From assembly GCF_965638725.1 (NCBI RefSeq), contig NC_134951.1, forward strand, positions 1,674,001-1,738,000: a DNA stretch of 64,000 bases, in the 5' to 3' direction. Below are positions 10,269 to 64,000 of this stretch, piece by piece. Within the stretch, counting starts at the first letter, position 1. Every line of letters starts with the position of its first letter. The translations under genes were made by a program, and so were the position numbers. The notes beneath the pieces are model-generated. The model was not told the origin of the DNA and searched no databases. It was given only the letters and a program-made list of their open reading frames with translations. Source of the stretch: Aptenodytes patagonicus. Lineage: Eukaryota > Chordata > Aves > Sphenisciformes > Spheniscidae.

Positions 10269-10309
<41 letters not shown>

Positions 10310-12845: not shown

Positions 12846-12899
12846 CTTAATCCACACCGAGGGGATTTGCGAATCTTGGTCACTCTCCCCTTCTCGGAG

Positions 12900-14668: not shown

Positions 14669-27016
<12,348 letters not shown>

Positions 27017-27923: not shown

Positions 27924-28128
27924 CTGATACAGGCTTAGTTTTGCCGCCGAGTTCTCCGCCAAGGTTCTCCGCCCCCGGGCTGTCCTTGTCGGGGGGGTCT
28001 GATGTAGTCCAGCAGCTCATGGACCTCCTCGAGTGTCTGTCTGGCCCCAAAACAGACACGTCTCCACATGCACGGTGCAGTTGATGGGGGGGCAGGGCTG
28101 GCAGGACCTCTCCGGATATTTGTGCAGC

Positions 28129-33426: not shown

Positions 33427-33581
33427 CGGCGCTTGGCATCGAGGCGGGCGGCGATGCGGCGGCGGCGGGCGGCGATGCGCTCCTCGGGGCCGGGGCCGGG
33501 GCCGGGGCCGGGGTCGCTGAGGGTCGGGGCCGGGGCCCGCCAGCCCGCCGCCGCCGCCGCCGCGCCCGCTCCCCGGCTCAT
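33427..33581 (-). other. DRC1 exon 1 and promoter, duplicated copy 2
   Basis: A 155-bp copy of DRC1 exon 1 with intact ATG and GT donor. It is 15 bp shorter than the exon at 26847-27016, lacking one repeat of the ARLDA codons; this shorter form agrees better with human DRC1. Both X-boxes are intact at 33646-33658 and 33727-33739. No DRC1 exon 2 follows it. Transcripts starting here would run into gene X copy 1. Confidence 0.85.
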
Positions 33582-34941: not shown

Positions 34942-37900
34942 TCATGGGGCAGCCACCAGCGGGACTGAGGGCTGCTTCTGAGCAGGGAAGCCCCAGTCAC
35001 CTCTCTCAGTCATCTGCAGGCTGCGCGGGGAGGGCTGCCCAGCGGGTAGTCTCTTCTTGGCCACCCTAGAAAAGAGAAGGGACGTGAGGAGGAACCCCTG
35101 GGCTCCATTTGTCCCCAGGCAGGAAGCCCCGGGGCAGGGAGGCCCCGCAGAGGCCCAGGCTGGAGGCAGAGGTGGCTCCTGGGGTCCAAACGGGGGCTCT
35201 GGCAAAGGGGCTACGGGGGGTGTGAGCGGCGGGCATCGGGCATCTCCTGGGCATCCCTGGCATTTCATTTCCCCTTGCCCTCCGCAAGCCCCGCAGGACA
35301 CACCACCTCCCCTGGCCTCTTCCACCCATCAGGGTCCTGCGCCTCTCGCTGGCTCTGTGCCGGATCCTGCCTCTCCGCGTGCTGTCCCTCCCAGCAGTCC
35401 CCGTGTGTGCACAGATGTGCACCGGGAAGTTAGCCGGGGCACTTCTTCCCCCCCCGCCCCAGGATCCCCACAGGCCCCGAGTGCCGATCCCCAGGAGAGC
35501 CCAGGAGGGCCCCCTTGCTGGTGGAGGGCGGTGGGGGAGGGAAATGGGGGTGCCTCTCCTAACCGCCGTGACCATCCTCCAAAAAAACCGACACCCTCTG
35601 GCCCCAGGCAGAGGGGGAGCCGAGCAGGTTGATGGGCAGCTGGCTCGGTGCACACAGAAACCATGTGGCTATCTGCTGGAACATCGCCACGGGGGCCAAA
35701 GGGACCACACCTCGCGGGGAGTCAACAATTTGGTGTCAGTTCCGCTCCTGTTTAACAGCCCATCCAAAGCAAAAATCAACGAGAGGCCGTCACGTCTCTC
35801 ACCGTCATCCCAACACTCCCAGACCGCACTGTCTCGTCCTACAGAAACACCCCCTGAACAACACGGCTTCGACGGCTGCACAAGACAGCCCAGTCCCGTC
35901 CCCGCCCTCCCATGCTGTGCTCACCCTGCCCACGCTCCTCCCAGTCCCACCTTTTCCTGCCGGTGCTCCTTACGCCTCCATCGCCATGGCGTGGAAGAGC
36001 GCGTCGACCTTAAACCGGAGATGGAATGGCAGCGTCTGGTCCCCTTCCCCGGCGCCACTGGGTGCCGAGCTCCAGCACGGCTTGGCCCTGACGCTCCTCC
36101 GCACGCTGGTCTTCAGTTTGGAGCAGGCCTGCCGGATGCGCTGCAGACTGAGCCCCTGCCCCAGGCCCTTGTACCCCACCCAGGGCAGGGGCTCCATCCC
36201 AACTCTCCGCAGACGGTCCAGGGCCTCACGGGAGGGGGGCTGTGCCCATGAGGGCAGGGGCCCCGTGGGGGCCAGGCTGGGGAGAGACTCCCCCTGCCCA
36301 GCTGGCTGCAGGTCTGCACTGCTGGCATCGCCGCATTGTGTCCACGTCTGCCTTGCAGGAGGAGCCCTTGCGTCCTGCCTGGCCGGTCTCATGGGTCCCT
36401 TCGGTGTTCCCAGGGCCCTGAGGACGGGGAACAACGCCTGCAAGCTCTCGCTGTTCCCAGAGCTCCCGGGCAGAGGCGCGTTGCACTCCTCGCAGCATCT
36501 CTCAGGGGCTATTTCGGGGAGCCGCTGGGTTATCTCCCACACGTAGAGCGGCTCCCCGCCGATGGCCAGCTCAAAGCCCAGCCCCAGTTCCAGCTGCAGG
36601 TCCTCCTCGTGCACCAGGAGGTCCACGCTGTAGAGGATGGCAGCCAGCACGGGCAGGTCCTGTTCTGCCGCGGTGGGCTCGCTGTGGTGCGGGCAGCTGC
36701 CCATGAGGCGTCGGCGGCACTGCAGGCAGACGAGGTATTCTTTCCTCACGGCTTTGCACGGGGTTGGAGCGCTGCTACCCTGAGCTGCCTTCAGCTCTCC
36801 CAGCAGGTCGAGGCAGATTTGGGTTATGTCCAGGGACTCCATCAGGGATCTGGCGAGCTCCTCCGTGTTGGTGATGGAAGGCTGGTTCCTGAGGAGCTCC
36901 GAGCTGGTGTCAGCACTGAAATGTCCACCTTGACCCATGTCTCCTGTCTCCCAGGGGAGCTCCCTTGCACAGGCTGCTTCCGCGCCGCAGTTGCTTCCCC
37001 ACCATTCTCCTCCATGGGGCTTTCCCCACCTGTGGGGGGAAATCCCGGCTGGACTGTGGGGGCTGCTGTGGGACAGGACAGAGCCAGCACCCTCTCTCTG
37101 GCTTCTCCCGACCGACTGGGTGATCTCCCAGCTGCCCGCAGCCAGCCCTGCCAGCTCTGGGATGCTCTGGGTCAGGTGGGGTCTTGGGGACATGGGGCAA
37201 GCCCAGCCCAGCAGGACGAGGCGCATAGCGAGGGGCCGGGCGCCTTCCAGCCCGAGGAGAAAAGGGCCAGCCCAGGCCAGGGGCCAAGGACAGAGAGGGG
37301 CGCTGGGGCCACCAGTGGGCTCTGTGGGAGGGGGTACGGTGGGTGTCAGCAGAAGGCATTGCCCTGAAAGCTGCCATCCCTGCAGGGGTTTGCCATGGCC
37401 CTCCGCAAGCCATCCCCCCCCTTCCCCAGCCCCCCCAACCCCATCCCTTCCTCGGCTTCCTCAGGGCATCAGGGCTGACCCCGGCTCTGCGCCACATCCT
37501 GCTCTCGCCCACCCGCAGCCTCCCCAGGGCGACGGGGCAGGGGGACCCACGAGTTGGCCGCCCCCCCTGCAGGGAAGGGCTCTCCTTACCCTGCCTGCAG
37601 GCTCTCTGCAGACCACTCCGCGCCTTCCCAGGGGATGGAGGCTCCTGAGGGAGGAGGCAGAGGGAGAGTGAGCAAGGGCAGCTGTCGCGGGGGCTCCCAG
37701 CTGCAATGGCGTCTCTCGGCCGGGAGCCGCTGCGGAGCTCTGGGATGGGGCTGCTCACCTATCGGGTCCTTCTTCCTGCTTCTCCTAGAGCTCTTCCTCG
37801 CGGAGGTCCCCTGCCCCCAGAAAGCAAGGCCCGGGTTAGCGCGGGGTGTCTCCCCTCAGCCAGGAGGGCCCCTGCCCAGGAAACCAGGCCCCTGGGAAGG

Positions 37901-38469
37901 GTAACTGGAGTTACAGGGACAGGAGTGTCCCTGGCCCCAGGCCTGGCACCTGGGCGGAGGTGGCTGCAGAACAGGGGCCTGGCTGGGTGGGCAATGGCCA
38001 CTCTTCACTGCTCCGTCCCAAAATGGGGCCCCTCCCGAGCAGCCTGGGGATGGGCTCTGCCCCGGGCTAAGCCCTGCCCAGGGAGTGTTTGGGGCGATGC
38101 CAAGACGGACACCTACCTTGGCCTTGCTTTTGGGCCACCAGGTCATGCAGATGCCCAGACCCAGTATGGCCAACAAGGTGGGGGTGCAGGGCAGCACGAT
38201 CACGCAGAGCCCCCAAACGCTCAGGCTTGAGGTGAAGAACAGCACCGTCAGCTGCCACTCCTCCATCTTGCCCAGGGAGCGCCAGAATCTCCTCCTGAGG
38301 TTCTGCATGATGAGGAGGGGATGTGCAAAGGGGTCAAGTGGGGAGGTCGAGAAACCCGGCGAGATCCCCTGAGGGGAGGAGAGGTTGGGGTGACACCAAA
38401 GCACCCCGCTCCTACCTGCTTGTTTGCTTTTCTTCCCATCTCTGATGTGTTTTTCACACTCTTGCCCAT
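34942..38469 (-). CDS. Gene X, full copy (unit 2): unknown membrane-anchored protein
   Basis: Seven exons: 38416-38469, 38117-38302, 37759-37810, 37590-37644, 35974-36903, 35001-35065, 34942-34964. All have AG/GT sites, the phases join without gaps, and the total (1365 bp) is 454 codons plus stop. Residues 1-18 are polar (MGKSVKNTSEMGRKANKQ). Residues 19-80 hold two close hydrophobic stretches (from WQLTVLFF to LGLGICMTW), a hairpin or long anchor. A basic patch follows (RKSSRRSRKKD). Exon 5 encodes 309 residues with helical TEELARSLMESLDI, a CLQC and a CEEC pair about 95 residues apart that could bind zinc, Pro-rich spacers and the FKVDALFHAMAMEA end. AATAAA lies at 34466. The layout recalls testis membrane proteins such as SPATA31 or SPEM, but I claim no homology. 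Confidence 0.75.
38113..38302 (-). other. Gene X exon 2: double membrane segment
   Basis: A phase 0-0 exon of 186 bp (38117-38302) with a pyrimidine-rich acceptor and a GTAGGT donor. It encodes 62 residues: a basic start NLRRRFWRSLGK, a hydrophobic stretch, a Pro-Cys-Thr-Pro turn, a second hydrophobic stretch and a lysine-rich end. Copies at 13742-13927 (inverted), 47835-48020, about 52010-52196 and 61713-61898 keep the same length and splice sites. This conservation of frame argues for coding use. Confidence 0.8.
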
Positions 38470-38809
38470 CTGCTCGCTTGCTCGCCAGCATGCGCGCAGT
38501 CGAAGTGACTCCTGACCCTCCCCAAAACCCACTGAAATAAGGGCCACGTTTGTGATGCAATGGTGACATTGCGTCGACACACAATGGCTGCCACAGTGAC
38601 CCAGGGCTGAGGTGGCGCGGGGAAATGTGAAGCCATTAGCGAGCAGCTGCCCCAGAGCGCCCCTGTGTCAGGGTTTGGGGGGCACCCAGGGCACCCCAGG
38701 ACATAGCCCAGGGCCTGCGGGGGAGCGCGCAGGGAAGGTTCCTCTGGGGCACCCGCCTCCACCCCTAGGCCAGGATGGGCCACTGTGATGGCTACCTGAT
38801 CAACCGGAG

Positions 38810-38945
38810 ATGGAATGGCAGCGTCTGGTCCCCTTCCCCGGCGCCGCTGGGTGCCGAGCTCCAGCCCCGCTCGGCCCCGACGCTCCTCCGCACTTTGGTT
38901 TGCAGTTTGGAGCAGGACTGCCTGTCACGTCCCACCTCCGAGAAG
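38810..38945 (-). pseudogene. Gene X exon 5 end fragment (unit 2)
   Basis: Encodes SCSKLQTKVRRSVGAERGW and GAGEGDQTLPFHLRL, a near match to the end of gene X exon 5, then runs off into spacer. The same fragment recurs at about 48.53-48.66, 52.69-52.82 and 62.41-62.54 kb, and diverged at 12.90-13.08 kb. It lies upstream of gene X exon 1 and is not part of the gene model. Confidence 0.65.
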
Positions 38946-38994
38946 GGGAGAGTGACCAAGATTCGCAAATCCCCTCGGTGTGGATTAGGGTGAG

Positions 38995-39451
38995 ATAACA
39001 CTCAAGGTCCGCACATAAACATCGACTTTAATGGACCAAACATTCTGTAAACGTTGACCCTCTCACAATTCCATCCACCTAAGCTCTGCGCTTTTAGGCT
39101 GTATGAGAAGTTGAAGTAGGCCTTGTGTTACTTAGCAGCTTTAAGAGAACAGAAAGAGTCGGGGGGTGGGGGGGTGGGGAGAGAGAGATGGGGAGATCAC
39201 CAGCCCTGGATCCAGCGTCGGACCTGCCGACGGGGGTGTTCGGTGTAGAGAGTGCCCCAGGTGGGTCGTATGCGCCCCTATTTATTGGCCCCAGTCCAAG
39301 ACTTCTGGAATCTTCTCTCGCCCCGGTTCCAGGAGTGGCTGAGACACCAGTCAGTCAAGGGAAGTGAGACCAGGCCCCTTCCCGTGGCTGACGTCTGGAG
39401 CCTTCTCTCGGGGCATTGTCTGGGCTCACAGCACAGTCACTTGGGCCTCGT
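38995..39451 (-). other. LTR-like sequence in unit 2 (candidate)
   Basis: The minus-strand counterpart of 12377-12845: CCAATAAATAGGGG at about 39277-39290 and ATTAAA at 39027-39032. It lies directly beside a CR1 tail. The copies in later units match it closely. Family unknown; possibly an old solo LTR. Confidence 0.3.
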
Positions 39452-39620
39452 CCCTTACGATGCCCCATCCCTGGAAGTGTTCAAGGTCAGGCTGGACGAG
39501 GCTTTGAGCAACCTGATCTAGTGGATCATGTCCCAGCGCATGGCAGGGGGGTTGGGTTAGACGATCTTCAAAAGTCCCTTCCAACCCAAACCATTCTGTG
39601 ATGGCATGGTTCTATGAGAA
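39452..39620 (+). mobile_element. CR1 3' end fragment (unit 2)
   Basis: Plus-strand CR1 3' terminus: DAPSLEVFKVRLDEALSNLI codons, then the 3' UTR ending ACCATTCTGTGATGG. It is the direct-orientation twin of 12205-12376 and recurs in later units. Confidence 0.88.
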
Positions 39621-39621
39621 C

Positions 39622-39828
39622 TCACTGACGACTGTCACAGGCAAAACAAACTCAACTTGGGGAAGATTAATTCCATTTATTGCCAATCAAAAAGTAGGAG
39701 AGTAAGAAACAAAAACAAAAGTAAAAACACCTTTCCCCCTCTCCGTCTTCTTCCCAGGTTCAACTTGGCTCCTCCATTCCCAACTCTTTGACCTCCTCTC
39801 CCCCAAGGGGCAAAGAGGGATGCCCTGG
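39622..39828 (-). mobile_element. A-rich inserted repeat with polyadenylation signal (probable LTR-element fragment)
   Basis: Replaces the end of a gene X exon 5. On the minus strand it carries CAATAAATGG near 39677-39686 and sequence (TTCAACTTGGCTCCTCCATT on the plus strand) that I associate with a common bird LTR-element repeat. The same insert lies at about 49.34-49.54, 53.50-53.72 and 63.22-63.43 kb. Assignment rests on memory of similar bird repeats. Confidence 0.4.
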
Positions 39829-41621
39829 TACCCCACCCAGGGCAGGGGCTCCATCCCAACTCTCCCCCTGTGCCCATGAGGGCGGGGGCCCCGTGGGGGC
39901 CAGGCTGGGGAGAGACTCCCCCTGCCCAGCTGGCTGCAGGTCTGCACTGCTGGCATCGCCGCATTGTGTCCACGTCTGCCTTGCAGGAGGAGCCCTTGCG
40001 TCCTGCCTGGCCGGTCTCATGGGTCCCTTCGGTGTTCCCAGGGCCCTGAGGACGGGGAACAACGCCTGCAAGCTCTCGCTGTTCCCAGAGCTCCCGGGCA
40101 GAGGCGCGTTGCACTCCTCGCAGCATCTCTCAGGGGCTATTTCGGGGAGCCGCTGGGTTATCTCCCACACGTAGAGCGGCTCCCCGCCGATGGCCAGCTC
40201 AAAGCCCAGCCCCAGTTCCAGCTGCAGGTCCTCCTCATGCACCAGGAGGTCCACGCTGTAGAGGATGGCGGCCAGCACGGGCAGGTCCTGTTCTGCCGCG
40301 GTGGGCTCGCTGCGGTGCGGGCAGCTGCCCATGAGGCGTCGGCGGCACTGCAGGCAGACGAGGTATTCTTTCCTCACGGCTTTGCACGGGGTTGGAGCGC
40401 CGCTACCCTGAGCTGCCTTCAGCTCTCCCAGCAGGTCGAGGCAGATTTGGGTTATGTCCAGGGACTCCATCAGGGATCTGGCGAGCTCCTCCGTGTTGGT
40501 GATGGAAGGCTGGTTCCTGAGGAGCTCCGAGCTGGTGTCAGCACTGAAATGTCCACCTTGACCCATGTCTCCTGTCTCCCAGGGGAGCTCCCTTGCACAG
40601 GCTGCTTCCGCGCCGCAGTTGCTTCCCCACCATTCTCCTCCATGGGGCTTTCCCCACCTGTGGGGGGAAATCCCGGCTGGACTGTGGGGGCTGCTGTGGG
40701 ACAGGACAGAGCCAGCACCCTCTCTCTGGCTTCTCCCGACCGACTGGGTGATCTCCCAGCTGCCCGCAGCCAGCCCTGCCAGCTCTGGGATGCTCTGGGT
40801 CAGGTGGGGTCTTGGGGACATGGGGCAAGCCCAGCCCAGCAGGACGAGGCGCATAGCGAGGGGCCGGGCGCCTTCCAGCCCGAGGAGAAAAGGGCCAGCC
40901 CAGGCCAGGGGCCGAGGACAGAGAGGGGCGCTGGGGCCACCAGTGGGCTCTGTGGGAGGGGGTACGGTGGGTGTCAGCAGAAGGCATTGCCCTGAAAGCT
41001 GCCATCCCTGCAGGGGTTTGCCATGGCCCTCCGCAAGCCATCCCCCGCCTTCCCCAGCCCCCCCAACCCCATCCCTTCCTCGGCTTCCTCAGGGCATCAG
41101 GGCTGACCCCGGCTCTGCGCCACATCCTGCTCTCGCCCACCCGCAGCCTCCCCAGGGCGACGGGGCAGGGGGACCCACGAGTTGGCCGCCCCCCCTGCAG
41201 GGAAGGGCTCTCCTTACCCTGCCTGCAGGCTCTCTGCAGACCACTCCGCGCCTTCCCAGGGGATGGAGGCTCCTGAGGGAGGAGGCAGAGGGAGAGTGAG
41301 CAAGGGCAGCTGTCGCGGGGGCTCCCAGCTGCAATGGCGTCTCTCGGCCGGGAGCCGCTGCGGAGCTCTGGGATGGGGCTGCTCACCTATCGGGTCCTTC
41401 TTCCTCCTTCTCCTAGAGCTCTTCCCCGCGGAGGTCCCCTGCCCCCAGAAAGCAAGGCCCGGGTTAGCGCGGGGTGTCTCCCCTCAGCCAGGAGGGCCCC
41501 TGCCCAGGAAAGAGCAGGACTGTGGGGCTGCTTCTGAGCTGGGAAGCCCCAGTCACCTCTCTCAGTCATCTGCAGGCTGCGCGGGGGGGGCTGCCCAGCG
41601 GGTAGTCTCTTCTTGGCCACC
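39829..41621 (-). pseudogene. Gene X copy 2b, lacks exons 1-2 and the end of exon 5
   Basis: Exon 3 equivalent about 41387-41438, exon 4 41218-41272, exon 5 from 40531 down to about 39829, where the A-rich insert takes over after the PLPWVGY codons. Upstream lies an exon 6 copy (41557-41621) and then the DRC1 promoter copy of unit 3. Both ends of the usual gene are missing, but the remaining exons are open and keep their splice phases. The insert would supply a new stop and poly(A) signal. Confidence 0.65.
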
Positions 41622-43142
41622 CTAGAAAAGAGAAGGGACGTGAGGAGGAACCCCTGGGCTCCATTTGTCCCCAGGCAGGAAGCCCCGGGGCAGGGAGGCC
41701 CCACAGAGGCCCAGGCTGGAGGCAGAGGTGGCTCCTGGGGTCCAAACGGGGGCTCTGAGCGAAGGGGCTACGGGGGGTGTGAGCGGCGGGCATCGGGCAT
41801 CTCCTGGGCATCCCTGGCATTTCATTTCCCCTTGCCCTCCGCAAGCCCCGCAGGACACACCACCTCCCCTGGCCTCTTCCACCCATCAGGGTCCTGCGCC
41901 TCTCGCTGGCTCTGTGCCGGATCCTGCCTCTCCGCGTGCTGTCCCTCCCAGCAGTCCCCGTGTGTGCACAGATGTGCACCGGGAAGTTAGCCGGGGCACT
42001 TCTTCCCCCCCCGCCCCAGGATCCCCACAGGCCCCGAGTGCCGATCCCCAGGAGAGCCCAGGAGGGCCCCCTTGCTGGTGGAGGGCGGTGGGGGAGGGAA
42101 ATGGGGGTGCCTCTCCTAACCGCCGTGACCATCCTCCAAGAAACGACACCCTCTGGGTGGGAGTGGATGTAACTGACCTAGGTACAGTTTGGTCCCGTGG
42201 TTTGGTAACAGGATCCACAGGCACCTTGTTGTGGTTTACTCTCGGTTTGGAGAGGAGATGGTGGTTACCGCCACCGTTTTCCCCAGGCTGGGGGAAGACG
42301 GGACCCTGACCCAGCCCCAGCTCAGGAGAGGGTGGCAGGGCACTGCCACTTCACGGTCTGGTCCCACCCAGCCTTGAGGGGCCTCTGAGGCTTGGGAGAG
42401 GACCCCAGTTCAGTCCTGCTTTGGGGAAAGGTGTGCCCCATTGCCGGTGAGTCCCAGTTTTGGGAACAACATCGGCCTGATCCAGGAGGCCACTGGCCTG
42501 CTGCTGATTTTGTCCAGGGGGGCAGAGGGCCCATGGCAGGGCAATATCTTGGGGAAGGGGGTATCGCTGCCCCGGTGCTGGGCTGGGGACAGGACAGGGA
42601 TGTCCTTGACTTTGGGCTGAGCAGGGATTGGGAGGGGTGGTCCCTGGCCACCTGCCATTTGGCAGGGAGTGGGGAGTGTCTCTGACAGGTTCAGGATTCA
42701 GGGTGGTCCCTGACCCAAGGCCAGTTTGGGGAGAGGCCCTGGGTCCCGTGAAGGCTGGCACGGCCGTGTCGGGTCCCTGCCCCCTGCCAGTTCGTGGTAG
42801 GGGTCCTGGCCCCAGCGCCGGTGTGGGGCAGGGGATGTTCTGAGCCCTGGGGAGGGTCTCTGAGCCTGTGCTGGTCCTGGGTGGGGGGTCAGGACTGGGT
42901 GCCAGTTTGGGGCGAGGGATCTGGAACTGGCACCGGTTTGGGGGTGGGGGCACCAACCCCAGTGCCAGTTTGGGGAAGAGGAGATCATCTGCGACCAGAC
43001 AAGGGGTCTGGGGAGAAGGTGCAGGACTTGGTGCCGGTTTGGGGCAGGGCGGGGGCCTGGACCCGGCTCTGATTTAGGGGGAGCCGGCTGGGGGCGCAGC
43101 CCGCCGCAACCGGGGCGGGGGGGGACGAGCCCAGTTTCTCAC

Positions 43143-43297
43143 CGGCGCTTGGCATCGAGGCGGGCGGCGATGCGGCGGCGGCGGGCGGCGATGCGCTCCT
43201 CGGGGCCGGGGCCGGGGCCGGGGCCGGGGTCGCTGAGGGTCGGGGCCGGGGCCCGCCAGCCCGCCGCCGCCGCCGCCGCGCCCGCTCCCCGGCTCAT
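43143..43297 (-). other. DRC1 exon 1 and promoter, duplicated copy 3
   Basis: 155-bp exon 1 copy with ATG at 43295-43297 and intact donor. X-boxes at 43362-43374 and 43443-43455 are unchanged. It is followed downstream (to the left) by the truncated gene X copy 2b, not by DRC1 exon 2. Confidence 0.85.
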
Positions 43298-44658
43298 GCG
43301 GCCCCGTCCCGCCCGGAGAGGCAGCTACCGCGCATGCGCGCCGCGGCTGGAGCGTCCCGGCGTCGCCTAGCAACGCCAACACAGCGCATGCGCATCGCCC
43401 CCTCCCCCGCGGCTCCGCGGCTCCGCGGCTCCGCGGCTCCGCGTCGCCCAGCAACGGCACGACCGCGCGTGCGCGCTGCCCCTTCCCGCTCCCGAGCGGC
43501 GCGCGCCACAGGGCGGCCGTTGGTGCGCGCGCGCGCGCGGGGCGTCCGGCGCCCTGAGGCGGGGGCGGCCGCGGGCCTGGCGCTGAGGGGAAAGAGCGAA
43601 AAAGGGGGGTCAAGGGCGACTTATTGGTGCTGAAAAACGGCGCCGGGGGCACTGTGAGATATTGCTGGGGTCCCGCGTCCTCTGCGCCGCACTGCTGGTG
43701 CTGGCTGGGCCTCCTCTTCTGCATTCCTCCTGTGTGGGTCCCATTCGTGGCTTTAGTCCCGGAGAAATGGGGCTGGAGGATGGCGTCGATCCCGAGGCTG
43801 TGCATCCCTCACCGGGGCTGGTAGAGGTGCCCAGCTGGCCACCGCGGGGCACCCAGGCTGGGGGTCTCGGAGCCCTTTGCCCACTGGGGCCATGGCGGGT
43901 GCCCTCAGGGGAAGGGGAGCGAGAGCTGGGGCTGGAGCCGTGGGAGCGCTCCCGAAAGGCTCGTTGGAGGGACGTTCAGAAACAAGGATGAAGCAGGGAC
44001 CTGGGATGGAGCAGCTGGGGACATGCCAGCCCCCCCAGGGTGGGGACGAGGCACAGAGTGGCCCCAGTGCCTGTACCCACTGCCAGCACTGTCCCTGACA
44101 CTCTCGTAGCCCTGGAGGTCACTGCCCCCCGTTCATGCAATAACTGAAGAGCTCTTGGGGATGTTTTAAGGATGCTACTGTTTTATTCTGATACAGGCTT
44201 AGTTTCGCCGCCGAGTTCTCCGCCAAGGTCTTGTGTTCCTGGGGAGAGCGCTCACGGCTGCTCTTTGGGGTTCTCTGCTGCTGGAGGCTTCCAGAGATGA
44301 CAGGCGGATCTTTGCTCCATCCCAGCAGAACACGAGGCGCTTGAGGGCCCCTCTTGTCCTTGGTCCCATGGCTGCACAGGGAACAAACCAGTCTGGGCTC
44401 TGCCTTCCCCTCTGGGCAGGAGGGGGGCAGGCAGACAGCAAGGTCCTGCAGCCACTGGTGGTGCCGGTGGCACGCAAGGGTTGGACATCTGTTGGACGTG
44501 CCCCCGGGCTGTCCTTGTCGGGGGGGTCTGATGTAGTCCAGCAGCTCATGGACCTCCTCGAGCGTCTGGCTGGCCCCAAAACAGACACGTCTCCACATGC
44601 ACGGTGCAGTTGATGGGGGGCGGGGGCTGGCAGGACCTCTCCAGATATTTCTGCCAGC

Positions 44659-47600: not shown

Positions 47601-48187
47601 ACCAGGCCCCTGGGAAGGGTAACTGGAGTTACAGGGACAGGAGTGTCCCTGGCCCCAGGCCTGGCACCTGGGCGGAGGTGGCTGCAGAACAGGGGCCTGG
47701 CTGGGTGGGCAATGGCCACTCTTCACTGCTCCGTCCCAAAATGGGGCCCCTCCCGAGCAGCCCGGGGATGGGCTCTGCCCCGGGCTAAGCCCTGCCCAGG
47801 GAGTGTTTGGGGCGATGCCAAGACGGACACCTACCTTGGCCTTGCTTTTGGGGCACCAGGTCATGCAGATGCCCAGACCCAGTATGGCCAACAAGGTGGG
47901 GGTGCAGGGCAGCACGATCACGCAGAGCCCCCAAACGCTCAGGCTTGAGGTGAAGAACAGCACCGTCAGCTGCCACTCCTCCATCTTGCCCAGGGAGCGC
48001 CAGAATCTCCTCCTGAGGTTCTGCATGATGAGGAGGGGATGTGCAAAGGGGTCAAGTGGGGAGGTCGAGAAACCCGGCGAGATCCCCTGAGGGGAGGAGA
48101 GGTTGGGGTGATGCCAAAGCACCCCGCTCCTACCTGCTTGTTTGCTTTTCTTCCCATCTCTGATGTGTTTTTCACACTCTTGCCCAT
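44659..48187 (-). CDS. Gene X, full copy (unit 3)
   Basis: All seven exons are present at the positions expected from a 9717-9718 bp shift: about 48134-48187, 47835-48020, 47477-47528, 47308-47362, 45692-46621, 44718-44782 and 44659-44681. Lengths, splice sites and phases equal those of the unit 2 copy, giving the same 454-residue length. It differs from unit 2 at a few residues, for example WCPKSK in place of WWPKSK at the end of exon 2. The final residues after MTER are VPLVSAP rather than VPLVAAP. AATAAA at 44182-44187 lies beyond the stop. Function unknown. Confidence 0.75.
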
Positions 48188-51545: not shown

Positions 51546-51645
51546 NNNNNNNNNNNNNNNNNNNNNNNNNNNNNNNNNNNNNNNNNNNNNNNNNNNNNNN
51601 NNNNNNNNNNNNNNNNNNNNNNNNNNNNNNNNNNNNNNNNNNNNN
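51546..51645. other. Assembly gap of 100 N
   Basis: Exactly 100 undetermined bases, the conventional placeholder for a gap of unknown size. The left flank ends in the block next to gene X exon 6, while the right flank starts at a gene X exon 3 donor. Confidence 0.99.
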
Positions 51646-54600
51646 ACCTATCGGGTCCTTCTTCTGCTTCTCCCTAGAGCTCTTCCTCGCGGAGGTTCCC
51701 CTGCCCCCAGAAAGCAAGGCCCGGGTAGCGCGGGGTGTCTCCCCTCAGCCAGGAGGGCCCCTGCCCAGGAAACCAGGCCCCTGGGAAGGGTAACTGGAGT
51801 TACAGGGACAGGAGTGTCCCTGGCCCCAGGCCTGGCACCTGGGCGGAGGTGGCTGCAGAACAGGGGCCTGGCTGGGTGGGCAATGGCCACTCTTCACTGC
51901 TCCGTCCAAAATGGGCCCCTCCCGAGCAGCCTGGGGATGGGCTCTGCCCCGGGCTAAGCCCTGCCCAGGGAGTGTTTGGGGCGATGCCAAGACGGACACC
52001 TACCTTGGCCTTGCTTTTGGGCCACCAGGTCATGCAGATGCCCAGACCCAGTATGGCCAACAAGGTGGGGGTGCAGGGCAGCACGATCACGCAGAGCCCC
52101 CAAACGCTCAGGCTTGAGGTGAAGAACAGCACCGTCAGCTGCCACTCCTCCATCTTGCCCAGGGAGCGCCAGAATCTCCTCCTGAGGTTCTGCATGATGA
52201 GGAGGGATGTGCAAAGGGGTCAAGTGGGGAGGTCGAGAAACCCGGCGAGATCCCCTGAGGGGAGGAGAGGTTGGGGTGACACCAAAGCACCCCGCTCCTA
52301 CCTGCTTGTTTGCTTTCTTCCCATCTCTGATGTGTTTTTCACACTCTTGCCCATCTGCTCGCTTGCTCGCCAGCATGCGCGCAGTCGAAGTGACTCCTGA
52401 CCCTCCCCAAAACCCACTGGAAATAAGGGCCACGTTTGTGATGCAATGGTGACATTGCGTCGACACACAATGGCTGCCACAGTGACCCAGGGCTGAGGTG
52501 GCGCGGGGAAATGTGAAGCATTAGCGAGCAGCTGCCCCAGAGCGCCCCTGTGTCAGGGTTTGGGGGGCACCCAGGGCACCCCAGGACATAGCCCAGGGCC
52601 TGCGGGGGAGCGCGCAGGGAGGTTCCTCTGGGGCACCCGCCTCCACCCCTAGGCCAGGATGGGCCACTGTGATGGCTACCTGATCAACCGGAGATGAATG
52701 GCAGCGTCTGGTCCCCTTCCCCGGCCGCCGCTGGGTGCCGAGCTCCAGCCCCGCTCGGCCCCGACGCTCCTCCGCACTTTGGTTTGCAGTTTGGAGCAGG
52801 ACTGCCTGTCACGTCCCACCTCCGAGAAGGGGAGAGTGACCAAGATTCGCAAATCCCCTCGGTGTGGATTAGGGGGAGATAACACTCAAGGTCCGCACAT
52901 AAACATCGACTTTAATGGACCAAACATTCTGTAAACGTTGACCCTCTCACATTCCATCCACCTAAGCTCTGCGCTTTTAGGCTGTATGAGAAGTTGAAGT
53001 AGGCCTTGTGTTACTTAGCAGCTTTAAGAGAACAGAAAGAGTCGGGGGTGGGGGGGTGGGGAGAGGAGAGATGGGGAGATCACCAGCCCTGGATCCAGCG
53101 TCGGACCTGCCGACGGGGGTGTTCGGTGTAGAGAGTGCCCAGGTGGGTCGTATGCGCCCCTATTTATTGGCCCCAGTCCAAGACTTCTGGAATCTTCTCT
53201 CGCCCCGGTTCCAGGAGTGGCTGAGACACCAGTCAGTCAAGGGAAGTGAGACCAGGCCCCTTCCCGTGGCTGACGTCTGGAGCCTTCTCTCGGGGCATTG
53301 TCTGGGCTCACAGCACAGTCACTTGGGCCTCGTCCCTTACGATGCCCCATCCCTGGAAGTGTTCAAGGTCAGGCTGGACGAGGCTTTGAGCAACCTGATC
53401 TAGTGGATCATGTTCCCCAGCGCATGGCAGGGGGGTTGGGTTAGACGATCTTCAAAGTCCCTTCCAACCCAAACCATTCTGTGATGGCATGGTTCTATGA
53501 GAACTCACTGACGACTGTCACAGGCAAAACAAACTCAACTTGGGGAAGATTATTTCCATTTATTGCCAATCAAAAAGTAGGAGAGTAAGAAACAAAAACA
53601 AAAGTAAAAACACCTTTCCCCTCTCCCGTCTTCTTCCCAGGTTCAACTTGGCTCCTCCATTCCCAACTCTTTGACCTCCTCTCCCCCAAGGGGCAAAGAG
53701 GGATGCCCTGGTACCCCACCCAGGGCAGGGGCTCCATCCCAAACTCTCCCCCTGTGCCATGAGGGCGGGGGCCCCGTGGGGGCCAGGCTGGGGAGAGACT
53801 CCCCCTGCCCAGCTGGCTGCAGGTCTGCACTGCTGGCATCGCCGCATTGTGTCCACGTCTGCCTTGCAGGAGGAGCCCTTGCGTCCTGCCTGGCCGGTCT
53901 CATGGGTCCCTTCGGTGTTCCCAGGGCCCTGAGGACGGGGAACAACGCCTGCAGCTCTCGCTGTTCCCAGAGCTCCCGGGCAGAGGCGCGTTGCACTCCT
54001 CGCAGCATCTCTCAGGGGCTATTTCGGGGAGCCGCTGGGTTATCTCCCACACGTAGAGCGGCTCCCCGCCGATGGCCAGCTCAAGCCCAGCCCCAGTTCC
54101 AGCTGCAGTCCCTCATGCACCAGGAGGTCCACGCTGTAGAGGATGGCGGCCAGCACGGGCAGGTCCTGTTCTGCCGCGGTGGGCTCGCTGCGGTGCGGGC
54201 AGCTGCCCATGAGGCGTCGGCGGCACTGCAGCAGACGAGGTATTCTTTTCCTCACGGCTTTGCACGGGGTTGGAGCGCCGCTACCCTGAGCTGCCTTCAG
54301 CTCTCCCAGCAGGTCGAGGCAGATTTGGGTTATGTCCAGGGACTCCATCAGGGATCTGGCGAGGTCCTCCGTGTTGGTGATGGGAAGGCTGGTTCCTGAG
54401 GAGCTCCGAGCTGGTGTCAGCACTGAAATGTCCACCTTGACCCCATGTCTCCTGTCTCCCAGGGGAGCTCCCTTGCACAGGCTGCTTCCGCGCCGCAGTT
54501 GCTTCCCCACCATTCTCCTCCATGGGGCTTTCCCCACCTGTGGGGGGAAATCCCGGCTGGGACTGTGGGGCTGCTGTGGGACGGACAGAGCCAGCACCCT

Positions 54601-56035
54601 CTCTCTGGCTTCTCCCGACCGACTGGGTGATCTCCCAGCTGCCCGCAGCCAGCCCTGCCCAGCTCTGGGATGCTCTGGGTCAGGTGGGGTCTTGGGGACA
54701 TGGGGCAAGCCCAGCCCCAGCAGGACGAGCGGCATAGCGAGGGGCCGGGCGCCTTCCAGCCCGAGGAGAAAAGGGCCAGCCCAGGCCAGGGGCCGAGGAC
54801 AGAGAGGGGCGCTGGGGCCACCAGTGGGCTCTGTGGGAGGGGGTACGGTGGGTGTCAGCAGAAGGCATTGCCCTGAAGCTGCCATCCCTGCAGGGGTTTG
54901 CCATGGCCCTCCGCAAGCCATCCCCCGCCTTCCCCAGCCCCCCCAACCCCATCCCTTCCTCGGCTTCCTCAGGGCATCAGGGCTGACCCGGCTCTGCGCC
55001 ACATCCTGCTCTCGCCCACCCGCAGCCTCCCCAGGGCGACGGGGCAGGGGGACCCACGAGTTGGCCGCCCCCCCTGCAGGGAAGGGCTCTCCTTACCCTG
55101 CCTGCAGGCTCTCTGCAGACCACTCCGCGCCTTCCCAGGGGATGGAGGCTCCTGAGGGAGGAGGCAGAGGGAGAGTGAGCAAGGGGCAGCTGTCGCGGGG
55201 GCTCCCAGCTGCAATGGCGTCTCTCGGCCGGGAGCCGCTGCGGAGCTCTGGGATGGGGCTGCTCACCTATCGGGTCCTTCTTCCTCCTTCTCCTAGAGCT
55301 CCTTCCCCGCGGAGGTCCCCTGCCCCCAGAAAGCAAGGGCCCGGGTTAGCGCGGGGTGTCTCCCTTCAGCCAGGAGGGCCCTGCCCAGGAAAGAGCAGGA
55401 CTGTGGGGCTGCTTCCTGAGCTGGGAAGCCCCAGTCACCTCTCTCAGTCATCTGCAGGCTGCGCGGGGGGGGCTGCCCAGCGGGTAGTCTCTTCTTGGCC
55501 ACCCTAGAAAAGAGAAGGGACGTGAGGAGGAACCCTGGGCTCCATTTGTCCCCAGGCAGGAAGCCCCGGGGCAGGGAGGCCCCACAGAGGCCCAGGCTGG
55601 AGGCAGAGGTGGCTCCTGGGGTCCAAACGGGGGCTCTGAGCGAAGGGGCTACGGGGGGTGTGAGCGGCGGGCATCGGGCATCTCCTGGGCATCCCTGGCA
55701 TTTCATTTCCCCTTGCCCTCCGCAAGCCCCGCAGGACACACCACCTCCCTGGCCCTCTTCCACCCATCAGGGTCCTGCGCCTCTCGCTGGCTCTGTGCCG
55801 GATCCTGCCTCTCCGCGTGCTGTCCCTCCCAGCAGTCCCCGTGTGTGCACAGATGTGCACCGGGAATTTAGCCGGGGCACTTCTTCCCCCCCGCCCCAGG
55901 ATCCCCACAGGCCCCGAGTGCCGATCCCCAGGAGAGCCCAGGAGGGCCCCCTTGCTGGTGGAGGGCGGTGGGGGAGGGAAATGGGGGTGCCTCTCCTAAC
56001 CGCCGTGACCATCCTCCAAGAAACGACACCCTCTG
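51646..56035. repeat. Repeat of the end of unit 2 after the gap (probable false duplicate)
   Basis: Corresponds to about 37758-42151, offset about 13.88 kb. It carries unit 2 variants rather than those of unit 3: CTTCTGCTTCTCC at the gap edge, GGCCACCAGG, GTGACACC, and the CTCCAGCCCCGCTCGG form. It holds gene X exons 1-3 (start near 52362), the exon 5 end fragment, the LTR-like piece, CR1 tail, A-rich insert and a copy of 2b (about 53.77-55.49 kb). One-base indels are dense throughout. Confidence 0.85.
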
Positions 56036-57020
56036 GGTGGAGTGGATGTAACTGACCTAGGTACAGTTTGGTCCCGTGGTTTGGTAACAGGATCCACAGG
56101 CACCTTGTTGTGGTTTACTCTCGGTTTGGAGAGGAGATGGTGGTTACCGCCACCGTTTTCCCCAGGCTGGGGGAAGACGGGACCCTGACCCAGCCCCAGC
56201 TCAGGAGAGGGTGGCAGGGCACTGCCACTTCACGGTCTGGTCCCACCCAGCCTTGAGGGGCCTCTGAGGCTTGGGAGAGGACCCCAGTTCAGTCCTGCTT
56301 TGGGGAAAGGTGTGCCCCATTGCCGGTGAGTCCCAGTTTTGGGAACAACATCGGCCTGATCCAGGAGGCCACTGGCCTGCTGCTGATTTTGTCCAGGGGG
56401 GCAGAGGGCCCATGGCAGGGCAATATCTTGGGGAAGGGGGGTATCGCTGCCCCGGTGCTGGGCTGGGGACAGGACAGGGATGTCCTTGACTTTGGGCTGA
56501 GCAGGGATTGGGAGGGGTGGCCTGGCCACCTGCCATTTGGCAGGGAGTGGGGAGTGTCTCTGACAGGTTCAGGATTCAGGGTGGTCCCTGACCCAAGGCC
56601 AGTTTGGGGAGAGGCCCTGGGTCCCGTGAAGGCTGGCACGGCCGTGTCGGGTCCCTGCCCCCTGCCAGTTCGTGGTAGGGGTCCTGGCCCCAGCGCCGGT
56701 GTGGGGCAGGGGATGTTCTGAGCCCTGGGGAGGGTCTCTGAGCCTGTGCTGGTCCTGGGTGGGGGGTCAGGACTGGGTGCCAGTTTGGGGCGAGGGATCT
56801 GGAACTGGCACCGGTTTGGGGGTGGGGGCACCAACCCCAGTGCCAGTTTGGGGAAGAGGAGATCATCTGCGACCAGACAAGGGGTCTGGGGAGAAGGTGC
56901 AGGACTTGGTGCCGGTTTGGGGCAGGGCGGGGGCCTGGACCCGGCTCTGATTTAGGGGGAGCCGGCTGGGGGCGCAGCCCGCCGCAACCGGGGCGGGGGG
57001 GGACGAGCCCAGTTTCTCAC

Positions 57021-57175
57021 CGGCGCTTGGCATCGAGGCGGGCGGCGATGCGGCGGCGGCGGGCGGCGATGCGCTCCTCGGGGCCGGGGCCGGGGCCGGG
57101 GCCGGGGTCGCTGAGGGTCGGGGCCGGGGCCCGCCAGCCCGCCGCCGCCGCCGCCGCGCCCGCTCCCCGGCTCAT
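57021..57175 (-). other. DRC1 exon 1 and promoter, copy after the gap
   Basis: Identical in form to 43143-43297, with ATG, donor and both X-boxes intact. If the sequence right of the gap is a false duplicate, this is the same locus counted twice. Confidence 0.75.
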
Positions 57176-58536
57176 GCGGCCCCGTCCCGCCCGGAGAGGC
57201 AGCTACCGCGCATGCGCGCCGCGGCTGGAGCGTCCCGGCGTCGCCTAGCAACGCCAACACAGCGCATGCGCATCGCCCCCTCCCCCGCGGCTCCGCGGCT
57301 CCGCGGCTCCGCGGCTCCGCGTCGCCCAGCAACGGCACGACCGCGCGTGCGCGCTGCCCCTTCCCGCTCCCGAGCGGCGCGCGCCACAGGGCGGCCGTTG
57401 GTGCGCGCGCGCGCGCGGGGCGTCCGGCGCCCTGAGGCGGGGGCGGCCGCGGGCCTGGCGCTGAGGGGAAAGAGCGAAAAAGGGGGGTCAAGGGCGACTT
57501 ATTGGTGCTGAAAAACGGCGCCGGGGGCACTGTGAGATATTGCTGGGGTCCCGCGTCCTCTGCGCCGCACTGCTGGTGCTGGCTGGGCCTCCTCTTCTGC
57601 ATTCCTCCTGTGTGGGTCCCATTCGTGGCTTTAGTCCCGGAGAAATGGGGCTGGAGGATGGCGTCGATCCCGAGGCTGTGCATCCCTCACCGGGGCTGGT
57701 AGAGGTGCCCAGCTGGCCACCGCGGGGCACCCAGGCTGGGGGTCTCGGAGCCCTTTGCCCACTGGGGCCATGGCGGGTGCCCTCAGGGGAAGGGGAGCGA
57801 GAGCTGGGGCTGGAGCCGTGGGAGCGCTCCCGAAAGGCTCGTTGGAGGGACGTTCAGAAACAAGGATGAAGCAGGGACCTGGGATGGAGCAGCTGGGGAC
57901 ATGCCAGCCCCCCCAGGGTGGGGACGAGGCACAGAGTGGCCCCAGTGCCTGTACCCACTGCCAGCACTGTCCCTGACACTCTCGTAGCCCTGGAGGTCAC
58001 TGCCCCCCGTTCATGCAATAACTGAAGAGCTCTTGGGGATGTTTTAAGGATGCTACTGTTTTATTCTGATACAGGCTTAGTTTCGCCGCCGAGTTCTCCG
58101 CCAAGGTCTTGTGTTCCTGGGGAGAGCGCTCACGGCTGCTCTTTGGGGTTCTCTGCTGCTGGAGGCTTCCAGAGATGACAGGCGGATCTTTGCTCCATCC
58201 CAGCAGAACACGAGGCGCTTGAGGGCCCCTCTTGTCCTTGGTCCCATGGCTGCACAGGGAACAAACCAGTCTGGGCTCTGCCTTCCCCTCTGGGCAGGAG
58301 GGGGGCAGGCAGACAGCAAGGTCCTGCAGCCACTGGTGGTGCCGGTGGCACGCAAGGGTTGGACATCTGTTGGACGTGCCCCCGGGCTGTCCTTGTCGGG
58401 GGGGTCTGATGTAGTCCAGCAGCTCATGGACCTCCTCGAGCGTCTGGCTGGCCCCAAAACAGACACGTCTCCACATGCACGGTGCAGTTGATGGGGGGCG
58501 GGGGCTGGCAGGACCTCTCCAGATATTTCTGCCAGC

Positions 58537-61500
58537 TCATGGGGCAGACACCAGCGGGACTGAGGGCTGCTTCTGAGCAGGGAAGCCCCAGTCACCTCTC
58601 TCAGTCATCTGCAGGCTGCGCGGGGAGGGCTGCCCAGCGGGTAGTCTCTTCTTGGCCACCCTAGAAAAGAGAAGGGACGTGAGGAGGAACCCCTGGGCTC
58701 CATTTGTCCCCAGGCAGGAAGCCCCGGGGCAGGGAGGCCCCGCAGAGGCCCAGGCTGGAGGCAGAGGTGGCTCCTGGGGTCCAAACGGGGGCTCTGAGCG
58801 AAGGGGCTACGGGGGGTGTGAGCGGCGGGCATCGGGCATCTCCTGGGCATCCCTGGCATTTCATTTCCCCTTGCCCTCCGCAAGCCCCGCAGGACACACC
58901 ACCTCCCCTGGCCTCTTCCACCCATCAGGGTCCTGCGCCTCTCGCTGGCTCTGTGCCGGATCCTGCCTCTCCGCGTGCTGTCCCTCCCAGCAGTCCCCGT
59001 GTGTGCACAGATGTGCACCGGGAAGTTAGCCGGGGCACTTCTTCCCCCCCCGCCCCAGGATCCCCACAGGCCCCGAGTGCCGATCCCCAGGAGAGCCCAG
59101 GAGGGCCCCCTTGCTGGTGGAGGGCGGTGGGGGAGGGAAATGGGGGTGCCTCTCCTAACCGCCGTGACCATCCTCCAAAAAAACCGACACCCTCTGGCCC
59201 CAGGCAGAGGGGGAGCCGAGCAGGTTGATGGGCAGCTGGCTCGGTGCACACAGAAACCATGTGGCTATCTGCTGGAACATCGCCACGGGGGCCAAAGGGA
59301 CCACACCTCGCGGGGAGTCAACAATTTGGTGTCAGTTCCGCTCCTGTTTAACAGCCCATCCAAAGCAAAAATCAACGAGAGGCCGTCACGTCTCTCACCG
59401 TCATCCCAACACTCCCAGACCGCACTGTCTCGTCCTACAGAAACACCCCCTGAACAACACGGCTTCGACGGCTGCACAAGACAGCCCAGTCCCGTCCCCG
59501 CCCTCCCATGCTGTGCTCACCCTGCCCACGCTCCTCCCAGTCCCACCTTTTCCTGCCGGTGCTCCTTACGCCTCCATCGCCATGGCGTGGAAGAGCGCGT
59601 CGACCTTAAACCGGAGATGGAATGGCAGCGTCTGGTCCCCTTCCCCGGCGCCACTGGGTGCCGAGCTCCAGCACGGCTTGGCCCTGACGCTCCTCCGCAC
59701 GCGGGTCTTCAGTTTGGAGCAGGCCTGCCGGATGCGCTGCAGACTGAGCCCCTGCCCCAGGCCCTTGTACCCCACCCAGGGCAGGGGCTCCATCCCAACT
59801 CTCCGCAGACGGTCCAGGGCCTCACGGGAGGGGGGCTGTGCCCATGAGGGCAGGGGCCCCGTGGGGGCCAGGCTGGGGAGAGACTCCCCCTGCCCAGCTG
59901 GCTGCAGGTCTGCGCTGCTGGCATCGCCGCATTGTGTCCGTGTCTGCCTTGCAGGAGGAGCCCTTGCGTCCTGCCTGGCCGGTCTCATGGGTCCCTTTGG
60001 TGTTCCCAGGGCCCTGAGGACGGGGAACAACGCCTGCAAGCTCTCGCTGTTCCCAGAGCTCCCGGGCAGAGGCGCGTTGCACTCCTCGCAGCATCTCTCA
60101 GGGGCTATTTCGGGGAGCCGCTGGGTTATCTCCCACACGTAGAGCGGCTCCCCGCCGATGGCCAGCTCAAAGCCCAGCCCCAGTTCCAGCTGCAGGTCCT
60201 CCTCGTGCACCAGGAGGTCCACGCTGTAGAGGATGGCAGCCAGCACGGGCAGGTCCTGTTCTGCCGCGGTGGGCTCGCTGCGGTGCGGGCAGCTGCCCAT
60301 GAGGCGTCGGCGGCACTGCAGGCAGACGAGGTATTCTTTCCTCACGGCTTTGCACGGGGTTGGAGCGCCGCTACCCTGAGCTGCCTTCAGCTCTCCCAGC
60401 AGGTCGAGGCAGATTTGGGTTATGTCCAGGGACTCCATCAGGGATCTGGCGAGCTCCTCCGTGTTGGTGATGGAAGGCTGGTTCCTGAGGAGCTCCGAGC
60501 TGGTGTCAGCACTGAAATGTCCACCTTGACCCATGTCTCCTGTCTCCCAGGGGAGCTCCCTTGCACAGGCTGCTTCCGCGCCGCAGTTGCTTCCCCACCA
60601 TTCTCCTCCATGGGGCTTTCCCCACCTGTGGGGGGAAATCCCGGCTGGACTGTGGGGGCTGCTGTGGGACAGGACAGAGCCAGCACCCTCTCTCTGGCTT
60701 CTCCCGACCGACTGGGTGATCTCCCAGCTGCCCGCAGCCAGCCCTGCCAGCTCTGGGATGCTCTGGGTCAGGTGGGGTCTTGGGGACATGGGGCAAGCCC
60801 AGCCCAGCAGGACGAGGCGCATAGCGAGGGGCCGGGCGCCTTCCAGCCCGAGGAGAAAAGGGCCAGCCCAGGCCAGGGGCCGAGGACAGAGAGGGGCGCT
60901 GGGGCCACCAGTGGGCTCTGTGGGAGGGGGTACGGTGGGTGTCAGCAGAAGGCATTGCCCTGAAAGCTGCCATCCCTGCAGGGGTTTGCCCTGGCCCTCC
61001 GCAAGCCATCCCCCCCCTTCCCCAGCCCCCCCAACCCCATCCCTTCCTCGGCTTCCTCAGGGCATCAGGGCTGACCCCGGCTCTGCGCCACATCCTGCTC
61101 TCGCCCACCCGCAGCCTCCCCAGGGCGACGGGGCAGGGGGACCCACGAGTTGGCCGCCCCCCCTGCAGGGAAGGGCTCTCCTTACCCTGCCTGCAGGCTC
61201 TCTGCAGACCACTCCGCGCCTTCCCAGGGGATGGAGGCTCCTGAGGGAGGAGGCAGAGGGAGAGTGAGCAAGGGCAGCTGTCGCGGGGGCTCCCAGCTGC
61301 AATGGCGTCTCTCGGCTGGGAGCCGCTGCGGAGCTCTGGGATGGGGCTGCTCACCTATCGGGTCCTTCTTCCTCCTTCTCCTAGAGCTCTTCCTCGCGGA
61401 GGTCCCCTGCCCCCAGAAAGCAAGGCCCGGGTTAGCGCGGGGTGTCTCCCCTCAGCCAGGAGGGCCCCTGCCCAGGAAACCAGGCCCCTGGGAAGGGTAA

Positions 61501-62065
61501 CTGGAGTTACAGGGACAGGAGTGTCCCTGGCCCCAGGCCTGGCACCTGGGCGGAGGTGGCTGCAGAACAGGGGCCTGGCTGGGTGGGCAATGGCCACTCT
61601 TCACTGCTCCGTCCCAAAATGGGGCCCCTCCCGAGCAGCCCGGGGATGGGCTCTGCCCCGGGCTAAGCCCTGCCCAGGGAGTGTTTGGGGCGATGCCAAG
61701 ACGGACACCTACCTTGGCCTTGCTTTTGGGGCACCAGGTCATGCAGATGCCCAGACCCAGTATGGCCAACAAGGTGGGGGTGCAGGGCAGCACGATCACG
61801 CAGAGCCCCCAAACGCTCAGGCTTGAGGTGAAGAACAGCACCGTCAGCTGCCACTCCTCCATCTTGCCCAGGGAGCGCCAGAATCTCCTCCTGAGGTTCT
61901 GCATGATGAGGAGGGGATGTGCAAAGGGGTCAAGTGGGGAGGTCGAGAAACCCGGCGAGATCCCCTGAGGGGAGGAGAGGTTGGGGTGATGCCAAAGCAC
62001 CCCGCTCCTACCTGCTTGTTTGCTTTTCTTCCCATCTCTGATGTGTTTTTCACACTCTTGCCCAT
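58537..62065 (-). CDS. Gene X, full copy after the gap
   Basis: Same seven exons as the unit 3 gene shifted by 13878 bp, with exon 1 at 62012-62065, exon 5 at 59570-60499 and the stop at 58537-58539. I find no difference from the unit 3 copy by eye, down to residue variants such as WCPKSK and VPLVSAP. It is therefore either a very recent duplicate or, more likely, the same gene assembled twice. Confidence 0.65.
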
Positions 62066-63221
62066 CTGCTCGCTTGCTCGCCAGCATGCGCGCAGTCGAA
62101 GTGACTCCTGACCCTCCCCAAAACCCACTGAAATAAGGGCCACGTTTGTGATGCAATGGTGACATTGCGTCGACACACAATGGCTGCCACAGTGACCCAG
62201 GGCTGAGGTGGCGCGGGGAAATGTGAAGCCATTAGCGAGCAGCTGCCCCAGAGCGCCCCTGTGTCAGGGTTTGGGGGGCACCCAGGGCACCCCAGGACAT
62301 AGCCCAGGGCCTGCGGGGGAGCGCGCAGGGAAGGTTCCTCTGGGGCACCCGCCTCCACCCCTAGGCCAGGATGGGCCACTGTGATGGCTACCTGATCAAC
62401 CGGAGATGGAATGGCAGCGTCTGGTCCCCTTCCGCGGCGCCGTTGGGTGCCGAGCTCTAGCCCCGCTTGGCCCCGACGCTCCTCCGCACTTTGGTTTGCA
62501 GTTTGGAGCAGGACTGCCTGTCACGTCCCACCTCCGAGAAGGGGAGAGTGACCAAGATTCGCAAATCCCCTCGGTGTGGATTAGGGTGAGATAACACTCA
62601 AGGTCCGCACATAAACATCGACTTTAATGGACCAAACATTCTGTAAACGTTGACCCTCTCACAATTCCATCCACCTAAGCTCTGCGCTTTTAGGCTGTAT
62701 GAGAAGTTGAAGTAGGCCTTGTGTTACTTAGCAGCTTTAAGAGAACAGAAAGAGTCGGGGGGTGGGGGGGTGGGGAGAGAGAGATGGGGAGATCACCAGC
62801 CCTGGATCCAGCGTCGGACCTGCCGACGGGGGTGTTCGGTGTAGAGAGTGCCCCAGGTGGGTCGTATGCGCCCCTATTTATTAGCCCCAGTCCAAGACTT
62901 CTGGAATCTTCTCTCGCCCCGGTTCCAGGAGTGGCTGAGACACCAGTCAGTCAAGGGAAGTGAGACCAGGCCCCTTCCCGTGGCTGACGTCTGGAGCCTT
63001 CTCTCGGGGCATTGTCTGGGCTCACAGCACAGTCACTTGGGCCTCGTCCCTTACGATGCCCCATCCCTGGAAGTGTTCAAGGTCAGGCTGGACGAGGCTT
63101 TGAGCAACCTGATCTAGTGGATCATGTCCCAGCGCATGGCAGGGGGGTTGGGTTAGACGATCTTCAAAAGTCCCTTCCAACCCAAACCATTCTGTGATGG
63201 CATGGTTCTATGAGAACTCAC

Positions 63222-64000
63222 TGACGACTGTCACAGGCAAAACAAACTCAACTTGGGGAAGATTAATTCCATTTATTGCCAATCAAAAAGTAGGAGAGTA
63301 AGAAACAAAAACAAAAGTAAAAACACCTTTCCCCCTCTCCGTCTTCTTCCCAGGTTCAACTTGGCTCCTCCATTCCCAACTCTTTGACCTCCTCTCCCCC
63401 AAGGGGCAAAGAGGGATGCCCTGGTACCCCACCCAGGGCAGGGGCTCCATCCCAACTCTCCCCCTGTGCCCATGAGGGCGGGGGCCCCGTGGGGGCCAGG
63501 CTGGGGAGAGACTCCCCCTGCCCAGCTGGCTGCAGGTCTGCACTGCTGGCATCGCCGCATTGTGTCCACGTCTGCCTTGCAGGAGGAGCCCTTGCGTCCT
63601 GCCTGGCCGGTCTCATGGGTCCCTTCGGTGTTCCCAGGGCCCTGAGGACGGGGAACAACGCCTGCAAGCTCTCGCTGTTCCCAGAGCTCCCGGGCAGAGG
63701 CGCGTTGCACTCCTCGCAGCATCTCTCAGGGGCTATTTCGGGGAGCCGCTGGGTTATCTCCCACACGTAGAGCGGCTCCCCGCCGATGGCCAGCTCAAAG
63801 CCCAGCCCCAGTTCCAGCTGCAGGTCCTCCTCATGCACCAGGAGGTCCACGCTGTAGAGGATGGCGGCCAGCACGGGCAGGTCCTGTTCTGCCGCGGTGG
63901 GCTCGCTGCGGTGCGGGCAGCTGCCCATGAGGCGTCGGCGGCACTGCAGGCAGACGAGGTATTCTTTCCTCACGGCTTTGCACGGGGTTGGAGCGCCGCT
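63222..64000 (-). pseudogene. Gene X partial copy at the window edge
   Basis: A-rich insert followed by the body of exon 5, running off the window. It matches 39622-40390 and 49340-50110. Unlike the version at 49.34-50.1 kb its frame is open (205 codons from the insert to the edge), which supports the view that the indels near the gap are errors. Confidence 0.65.

Follow-up and report, generated by a model that had tools for sequence, protein, structure and literature searches.

The 64,000-nucleotide window of Aptenodytes patagonicus DNA analysed here contains a tandem array that is interrupted by an assembly gap, which raises the question of whether the DNA to the right of the gap adds further array units or is DNA from the left side written a second time. 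The gap consists of exactly 100 N, is the sole N run in the window and separates a left from a right contig (Table 1). Among the many array diagonals obtained by self-BLAST of the window, the right contig from its first base to the window end (51646-64000) is covered by one single 12.36-kb match to 37757-50118 with 99.45% identity. An earlier note on this DNA had proposed that 51646-64000 tracks 37758-50120 at a steady distance of about 13.88 kb and that a self-comparison would display one off-diagonal of about 12.3 kb; both expectations were confirmed, with a register offset of 13,889 at the start of the match and 13,882 at its end. The left contig's suffix matches the right contig's prefix, as expected for a dovetail, over 12,362 of 13,789 bases, at which point the window ends. 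For the terminal 1,427 bp of the left contig (50119-51545), any partner would fall beyond 64000, and the lack of one in the window was counted as a point against an overlap.

Within the left contig, the array repeats at an offset of 9,717 bp (30151-41842 versus 39868-51545, 99.41% in self-BLAST). Its blocks, which were named P, Q, S, T, R and U in this analysis, were read from self-BLAST in the order P Q R S T R S, followed by two rounds of P Q S T R U T R S, the last S block being truncated by the gap. In the right contig, the first bases belong to the final part of an R block, after which U T R S P Q S T R U T fill the remainder of the window. Differences were counted in global affine alignments (MAFFT staggered indels, inflating mismatches). 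In the left contig, the 11.7 kb compared between units 2 and 3 contain 43 substitutions and 21 indels. Most of the indels (18 of the 21) fall at or after 48600, close to where the left contig stops, which leaves 40 substitutions and 3 indels before this position; aligned at the array offset, the two units share at most 1,182 bp of uninterrupted identity. Apart from its gap-facing end, the left-contig array shows no sign of false duplication. In block comparisons, in which T includes the R after it, T2b and T3b of the left contig differ by 1 substitution and 10 indels in 1.6 kb, with T3b located inside the noisy contig end, and the nine other comparisons among T1, T2, T2b, T3 and T3b yielded 9 to 15 substitutions each. 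The single substitution between T2b and T3b indicates that local homogenisation occurs in the array, and the near-identity of real array copies over such short stretches was also counted against an overlap; comparable homogenisation over 6 kb was not seen in the array.

The 43 substitution positions that separate units 2 and 3, ten of which are covered in both copies, served as diagnostic sites for the array copy that the right contig follows. Agreement was obtained at 12/12 covered unit-2 positions and 41/41 covered unit-3 positions (53/53 in register), and the sequence of events described in the earlier note, unit 2 variants first and unit 3 variants later, is reproduced in order. In addition, the two contigs share a clean core that is identical over 5,991 bases, located in a zone in which 27 substitutions and 2 indels distinguish unit 2 from unit 3. 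All 5,891 101-mers of this core occur at the expected place in the left contig, and 1,103 of these are unique to that place within the left contig. The right-contig 31-mers that are absent from the left contig (1,330 of 12,325) all start at or before 56521.

The two renderings of this DNA differ by 65 changes in 12.36 kb, comprising 5 substitutions and 60 indels in the global affine alignment, and among the indels, 57 are single-base and 52 are of homopolymer type. These changes gather at the gap: the first 4,875 bases (about 4.9 kb) of the right contig hold 57 of them, and the last 2,912 bases (about 2.9 kb) of the left contig hold the other 8. Using other array copies in the window as outgroups to set polarity, 55 differences are private to the right contig and 8 to the left, one is undecided, and one is also present in another copy that lies within the noisy end of the left contig; overall, 63/65 are private to the contig whose end holds them. 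All five substitutions are private to the right contig and lie in its error-rich end. The ratio of substitutions to indels is 5:60 between the renderings, compared with 40:3 for unit 2 against unit 3 in the part before 48600 (Fisher p 1.8e-20). Consensus quality thus differs between the renderings, with private indels limited to the gap-facing 4.9 kb of the right contig and 2.9 kb of the left, and their presence at both gap-facing ends argues for poorly polished overlapping contig ends and not for evolution. Copies of the array-gene exon are frameshifted in the noisy zones at 49.6-50.3 and 53.7-54.5 kb, and their counterpart renderings remain open throughout the stretch that they cover (39868-40566, and from 63464 to the window end).

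Because of the diagnostic sites, the 5,991-bp exact match and the private, end-confined errors, one DNA stretch appears to have been assembled twice, and 51646-64000 is probably 37757-50118 written a second time, an assembly error and not biology. Judged from the assembled sequence, there is a high probability that this is an unmerged overlap of about 13.8 kb between contig ends of the same haplotype, termed a 'homotype' false duplication. Here, two contigs of one haplotype would end within the 9.7-kb tandem array and share about 13.8 kb; the assembler would have left both contigs separate, and the scaffolder would have placed them next to each other, separated by 100 N. Low read support at the ends may have left long-read indels uncorrected, which would have prevented the merge. 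The overlap would carry on through 50119-51545, and its expected length of 13,789 bp is of long-read size.

Table 1. Features of the array, the gap and the two renderings in the 64,000-nucleotide window.
Feature	Positions	Strand	Basis
P block 1: DRC1 CpG island and exon 1 (26846-27043), adjoins rest of DRC1	25855-27965	-	self-BLAST, CpG
Intact 322-codon exon ORF, array gene unit 1	29884-30849	-	identical to P0001
P block 2: orphan DRC1 promoter/exon-1 copy	32436-34513	-	self-BLAST, CpG-island/exon-1 positions
Intact copy of 322-codon exon ORF, unit 2	35973-36938	-	98.4% to P0001
Left contig 3' end, proposed overlap (13,789 bp if reaching contig end)	37757-51545		self-BLAST
P block 3: orphan DRC1 promoter/exon-1 copy	42152-44229	-	self-BLAST; exon 1 tested here
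Clean core of overlap	42643-48633		identical 5,991 bases to 56521-62511
Intact copy of 322-codon exon ORF, unit 3	45691-46656	-	99.1% to P0001
Error-rich left contig end	48633-51545		8/65 differences, all private; also 18/21 unit 2/unit 3 indels
Assembly gap, 100 N	51546-51645		N-run scan of window
Right contig 5' part, putative second rendering of 37757-50118	51646-64000		self-BLAST, alignment, diagnostic sites
Error-rich right contig start	51646-56521		57/65 differences (52 indels, 5 substitutions), 55 private to right contig
P block 3 again, putative false fourth copy	56032-58107	-	0 substitutions, 3 indels vs 42152-44229
Clean core, second rendering	56521-62511		identical 5,991 bases to 42643-48633
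Unit-3 exon ORF again, putative false copy	59569-60534	-	99.1% to P0001; inside identical core

The earlier note had named an unmerged contig overlap or a haplotig, a proposal that is supported, and the same-haplotype overlap is preferred to the haplotig because the 12.36 kb contain no more than 5 substitutions, all of them private and in the error-rich right end, and none in the core. That the right contig represents the other parental haplotype of the same locus, set beside the first as a haplotig ('heterotype' false duplication), is unlikely, even though the same register and gap placement would result and heterotype duplications outnumber homotype ones in all three VGP assemblies tabulated in the relevant part of Ko et al. 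(2022, PMC9516828). Comparison of the assembled sequences revealed no heterozygous variants between the renderings in the clean core. At a heterozygosity of 0.1%, the lowest VGP value quoted in the corresponding part of Rhie et al. (2021, PMC8081667), a core without SNPs would have a probability of 0.0025 and five or fewer substitutions overall one of 0.016, and at 0.22% these values decrease to about 2e-6 and 2e-7, in a test that would miss a haplotig in a homozygous stretch.

A real and very recent duplication of two array units is highly improbable; it would form a homogenised higher-order unit of 19.4 kb, and the 100 N would hide about 5.6 kb of the array. The locus is already a tandem array whose units are 99.4% similar within one contig, and a gap of 5,645 bp would restore the right contig to register, but such an event requires that no substitution arose outside the right contig's noisy end, that unit-2 and unit-3 variants retained an identical order and that private, mostly homopolymer-type indels gathered by chance at both gap-facing ends. 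If the divergence between units 2 and 3 is typical, a core free of differences would have a probability of about 2.5e-13, and the longest exact run of 1,182 bp between these units compares with 5,991 bp between the renderings. Private substitutions or a register of its own would mark the right contig as a true duplicate; instead, the left contig is followed at 53/53 diagnostic positions. A true two-unit duplication would have meant that a complete DRC1 promoter and exon 1 spread beside copies of an uncharacterised bird gene. Chance, or mere general repeat similarity among array units, is barely conceivable: the right contig aligns also to the next register (47475-51545, 97.9%), but 16 substitutions and 61 indels are present there in 4.07 kb, and general similarity was ruled out by the fit of all 53 covered diagnostic positions to the 13.88-kb register.

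The earlier note had additionally invoked the promoter spacing of 6.58, 9.72 and 13.88 kb. The values themselves were reproduced, as the spacings of the CpG-island exon 1 copies are 6,565, 9,716 and 13,878 bases, but they are uninformative as evidence. By assembly convention, 100 N usually denotes a gap of unknown length. Since the 100 N may stand for any length, a true array with a 9,717-bp offset would be accommodated if the gap hid about 5.6 kb (5,645 bp), and the change in spacing was set aside as evidence for false duplication, a conclusion that holds without it.

The preferred explanation, an unmerged overlap of contig ends, can be compared with known false duplications. Homotype false duplications are overlaps at contig boundaries in the portion of Rhie et al. 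(2021, PMC8081667) that describes them (Extended Data Fig. 5b, type 1), and gaps between duplicated pairs are listed as one mark of false duplications in the corresponding portion of Ko et al. (2022, PMC9516828). As far as these descriptions extend, the present case resembles the homotype form (PMC8081667) in that the duplicate lies at a contig boundary, has long-read length, is arranged in tandem with a gap and shows unequal consensus quality; the duplicates are located on one scaffold with a gap between them, and their assembled sequences contain no haplotype-specific variants. It differs from the homotype cases described there in that it sits in a tandem array, where it resembles one extra array unit, and in having been assessed on assembled sequence. 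A same-scaffold duplicate across a gap is also shared with heterotype false duplications or haplotigs, as portrayed in the pertinent parts of both papers (Rhie et al., 2021, PMC8081667; Ko et al., 2022, PMC9516828), from which the present case differs by the absence of allelic variation outside the error-rich end. The block order P Q S T R U T R S is identical to that of the true units 2 and 3 in the left contig, whereas the differences between those units are mainly substitutions (40:3 before 48600) and those between the renderings are mainly indels at contig ends. A literature search for contig-end indels together with false duplication found no paper combining all of these aspects.

DRC1 is located on the minus strand to the left of the array. 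The ORF 22624-22947 matches the solved DRC1 chains 8j07 (E 2.2e-18) and 9fqr (E 3.3e-17) and was the one of seven ORFs scanned with a Pfam NYD-SP28 match above the cut-off, one further ORF being just below it; more DRC1-like exons were recognised by eye between 16 and 25.4 kb. The CpG observed/expected ratio of P block 1 is 1.08 in its 600-bp core. Exon 1 in its unit-3 copy (43142-43297) yielded a weak DRC1 match at the same residue numbers (9fqr E 0.016, 8j07 E 0.54), and no DRC1 at E up to 10 was retrieved from the PDB when the long ORF across exon 1 served as the query. The orphan exon 1 in units 2 and 3 is open, has the same splice donor by eye and is detached from the rest of DRC1. The orphan DRC1 CpG-island copies could possibly drive the neighbouring array gene. 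A literature search on DRC1 tandem copies in birds found no paper combining all aspects.

The array gene product is an uncharacterised bird protein according to its named database relatives, which derive from storks, a penguin, eagles, owls, cranes and pigeons. Its database cluster P0001 contains four members on one 132-Mb contig, which fits an overcounted annotation. Pfam provided no family for the array-gene ORFs, and of 4/26 relatives scanned, three were without a family and the fourth had one match below the cut-off. The UniRef name of one relative, 'KIND domain-containing protein', was not borne out by Pfam. A profile search for solved relatives returned no confident match (best E 0.16), and a fold search with the structure model, which is poor (mean pLDDT 52.7, pTM 0.42), gave no match at E 0.001 or better. 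Among 23 sequences, the C-x2-C pair C71/C74 is invariant and C149/C152 is nearly so. The U block matches an additional N-terminal segment of longer relatives, which looks hydrophobic by eye.

Elsewhere in the window, an endogenous retrovirus lies beside DRC1 (3501-10937), with two 549-bp LTR-like repeats that are 98.2% identical and a pol-like ORF (6800-9931) with reverse transcriptase, RNase H and integrase domains. A 30-bp unit (10 codons per unit) is repeated 21.5 times at 4884-5535 within the long retroviral ORF 4136-6745. An inverted partial U block at 12213-14230 (12213-13035 and 13574-14230) is 97.6-98.8% identical to array copies and places array-gene pieces on the plus strand. Searches for RNA families and tRNAs found none in the window.

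The contrast between spread substitutions and private indels clustered at a gap provides a read-free test for false duplication. The contig-end indels look uncorrected, and the frame breaks that they cause in the array gene could be mistaken for recent pseudogenes. The suspicion of the earlier note that gene and promoter copies are overcounted holds for one set, the fourth P block and the fourth exon ORF being unit 3 again, and by this reading of the assembled DNA the number of DRC1 promoter copies in the window would drop from four to three, as would that of intact long array-gene exons. The duplication is a correct and ordinary finding, most likely an unmerged overlap, and as a false duplication it is not to be counted as new biology.
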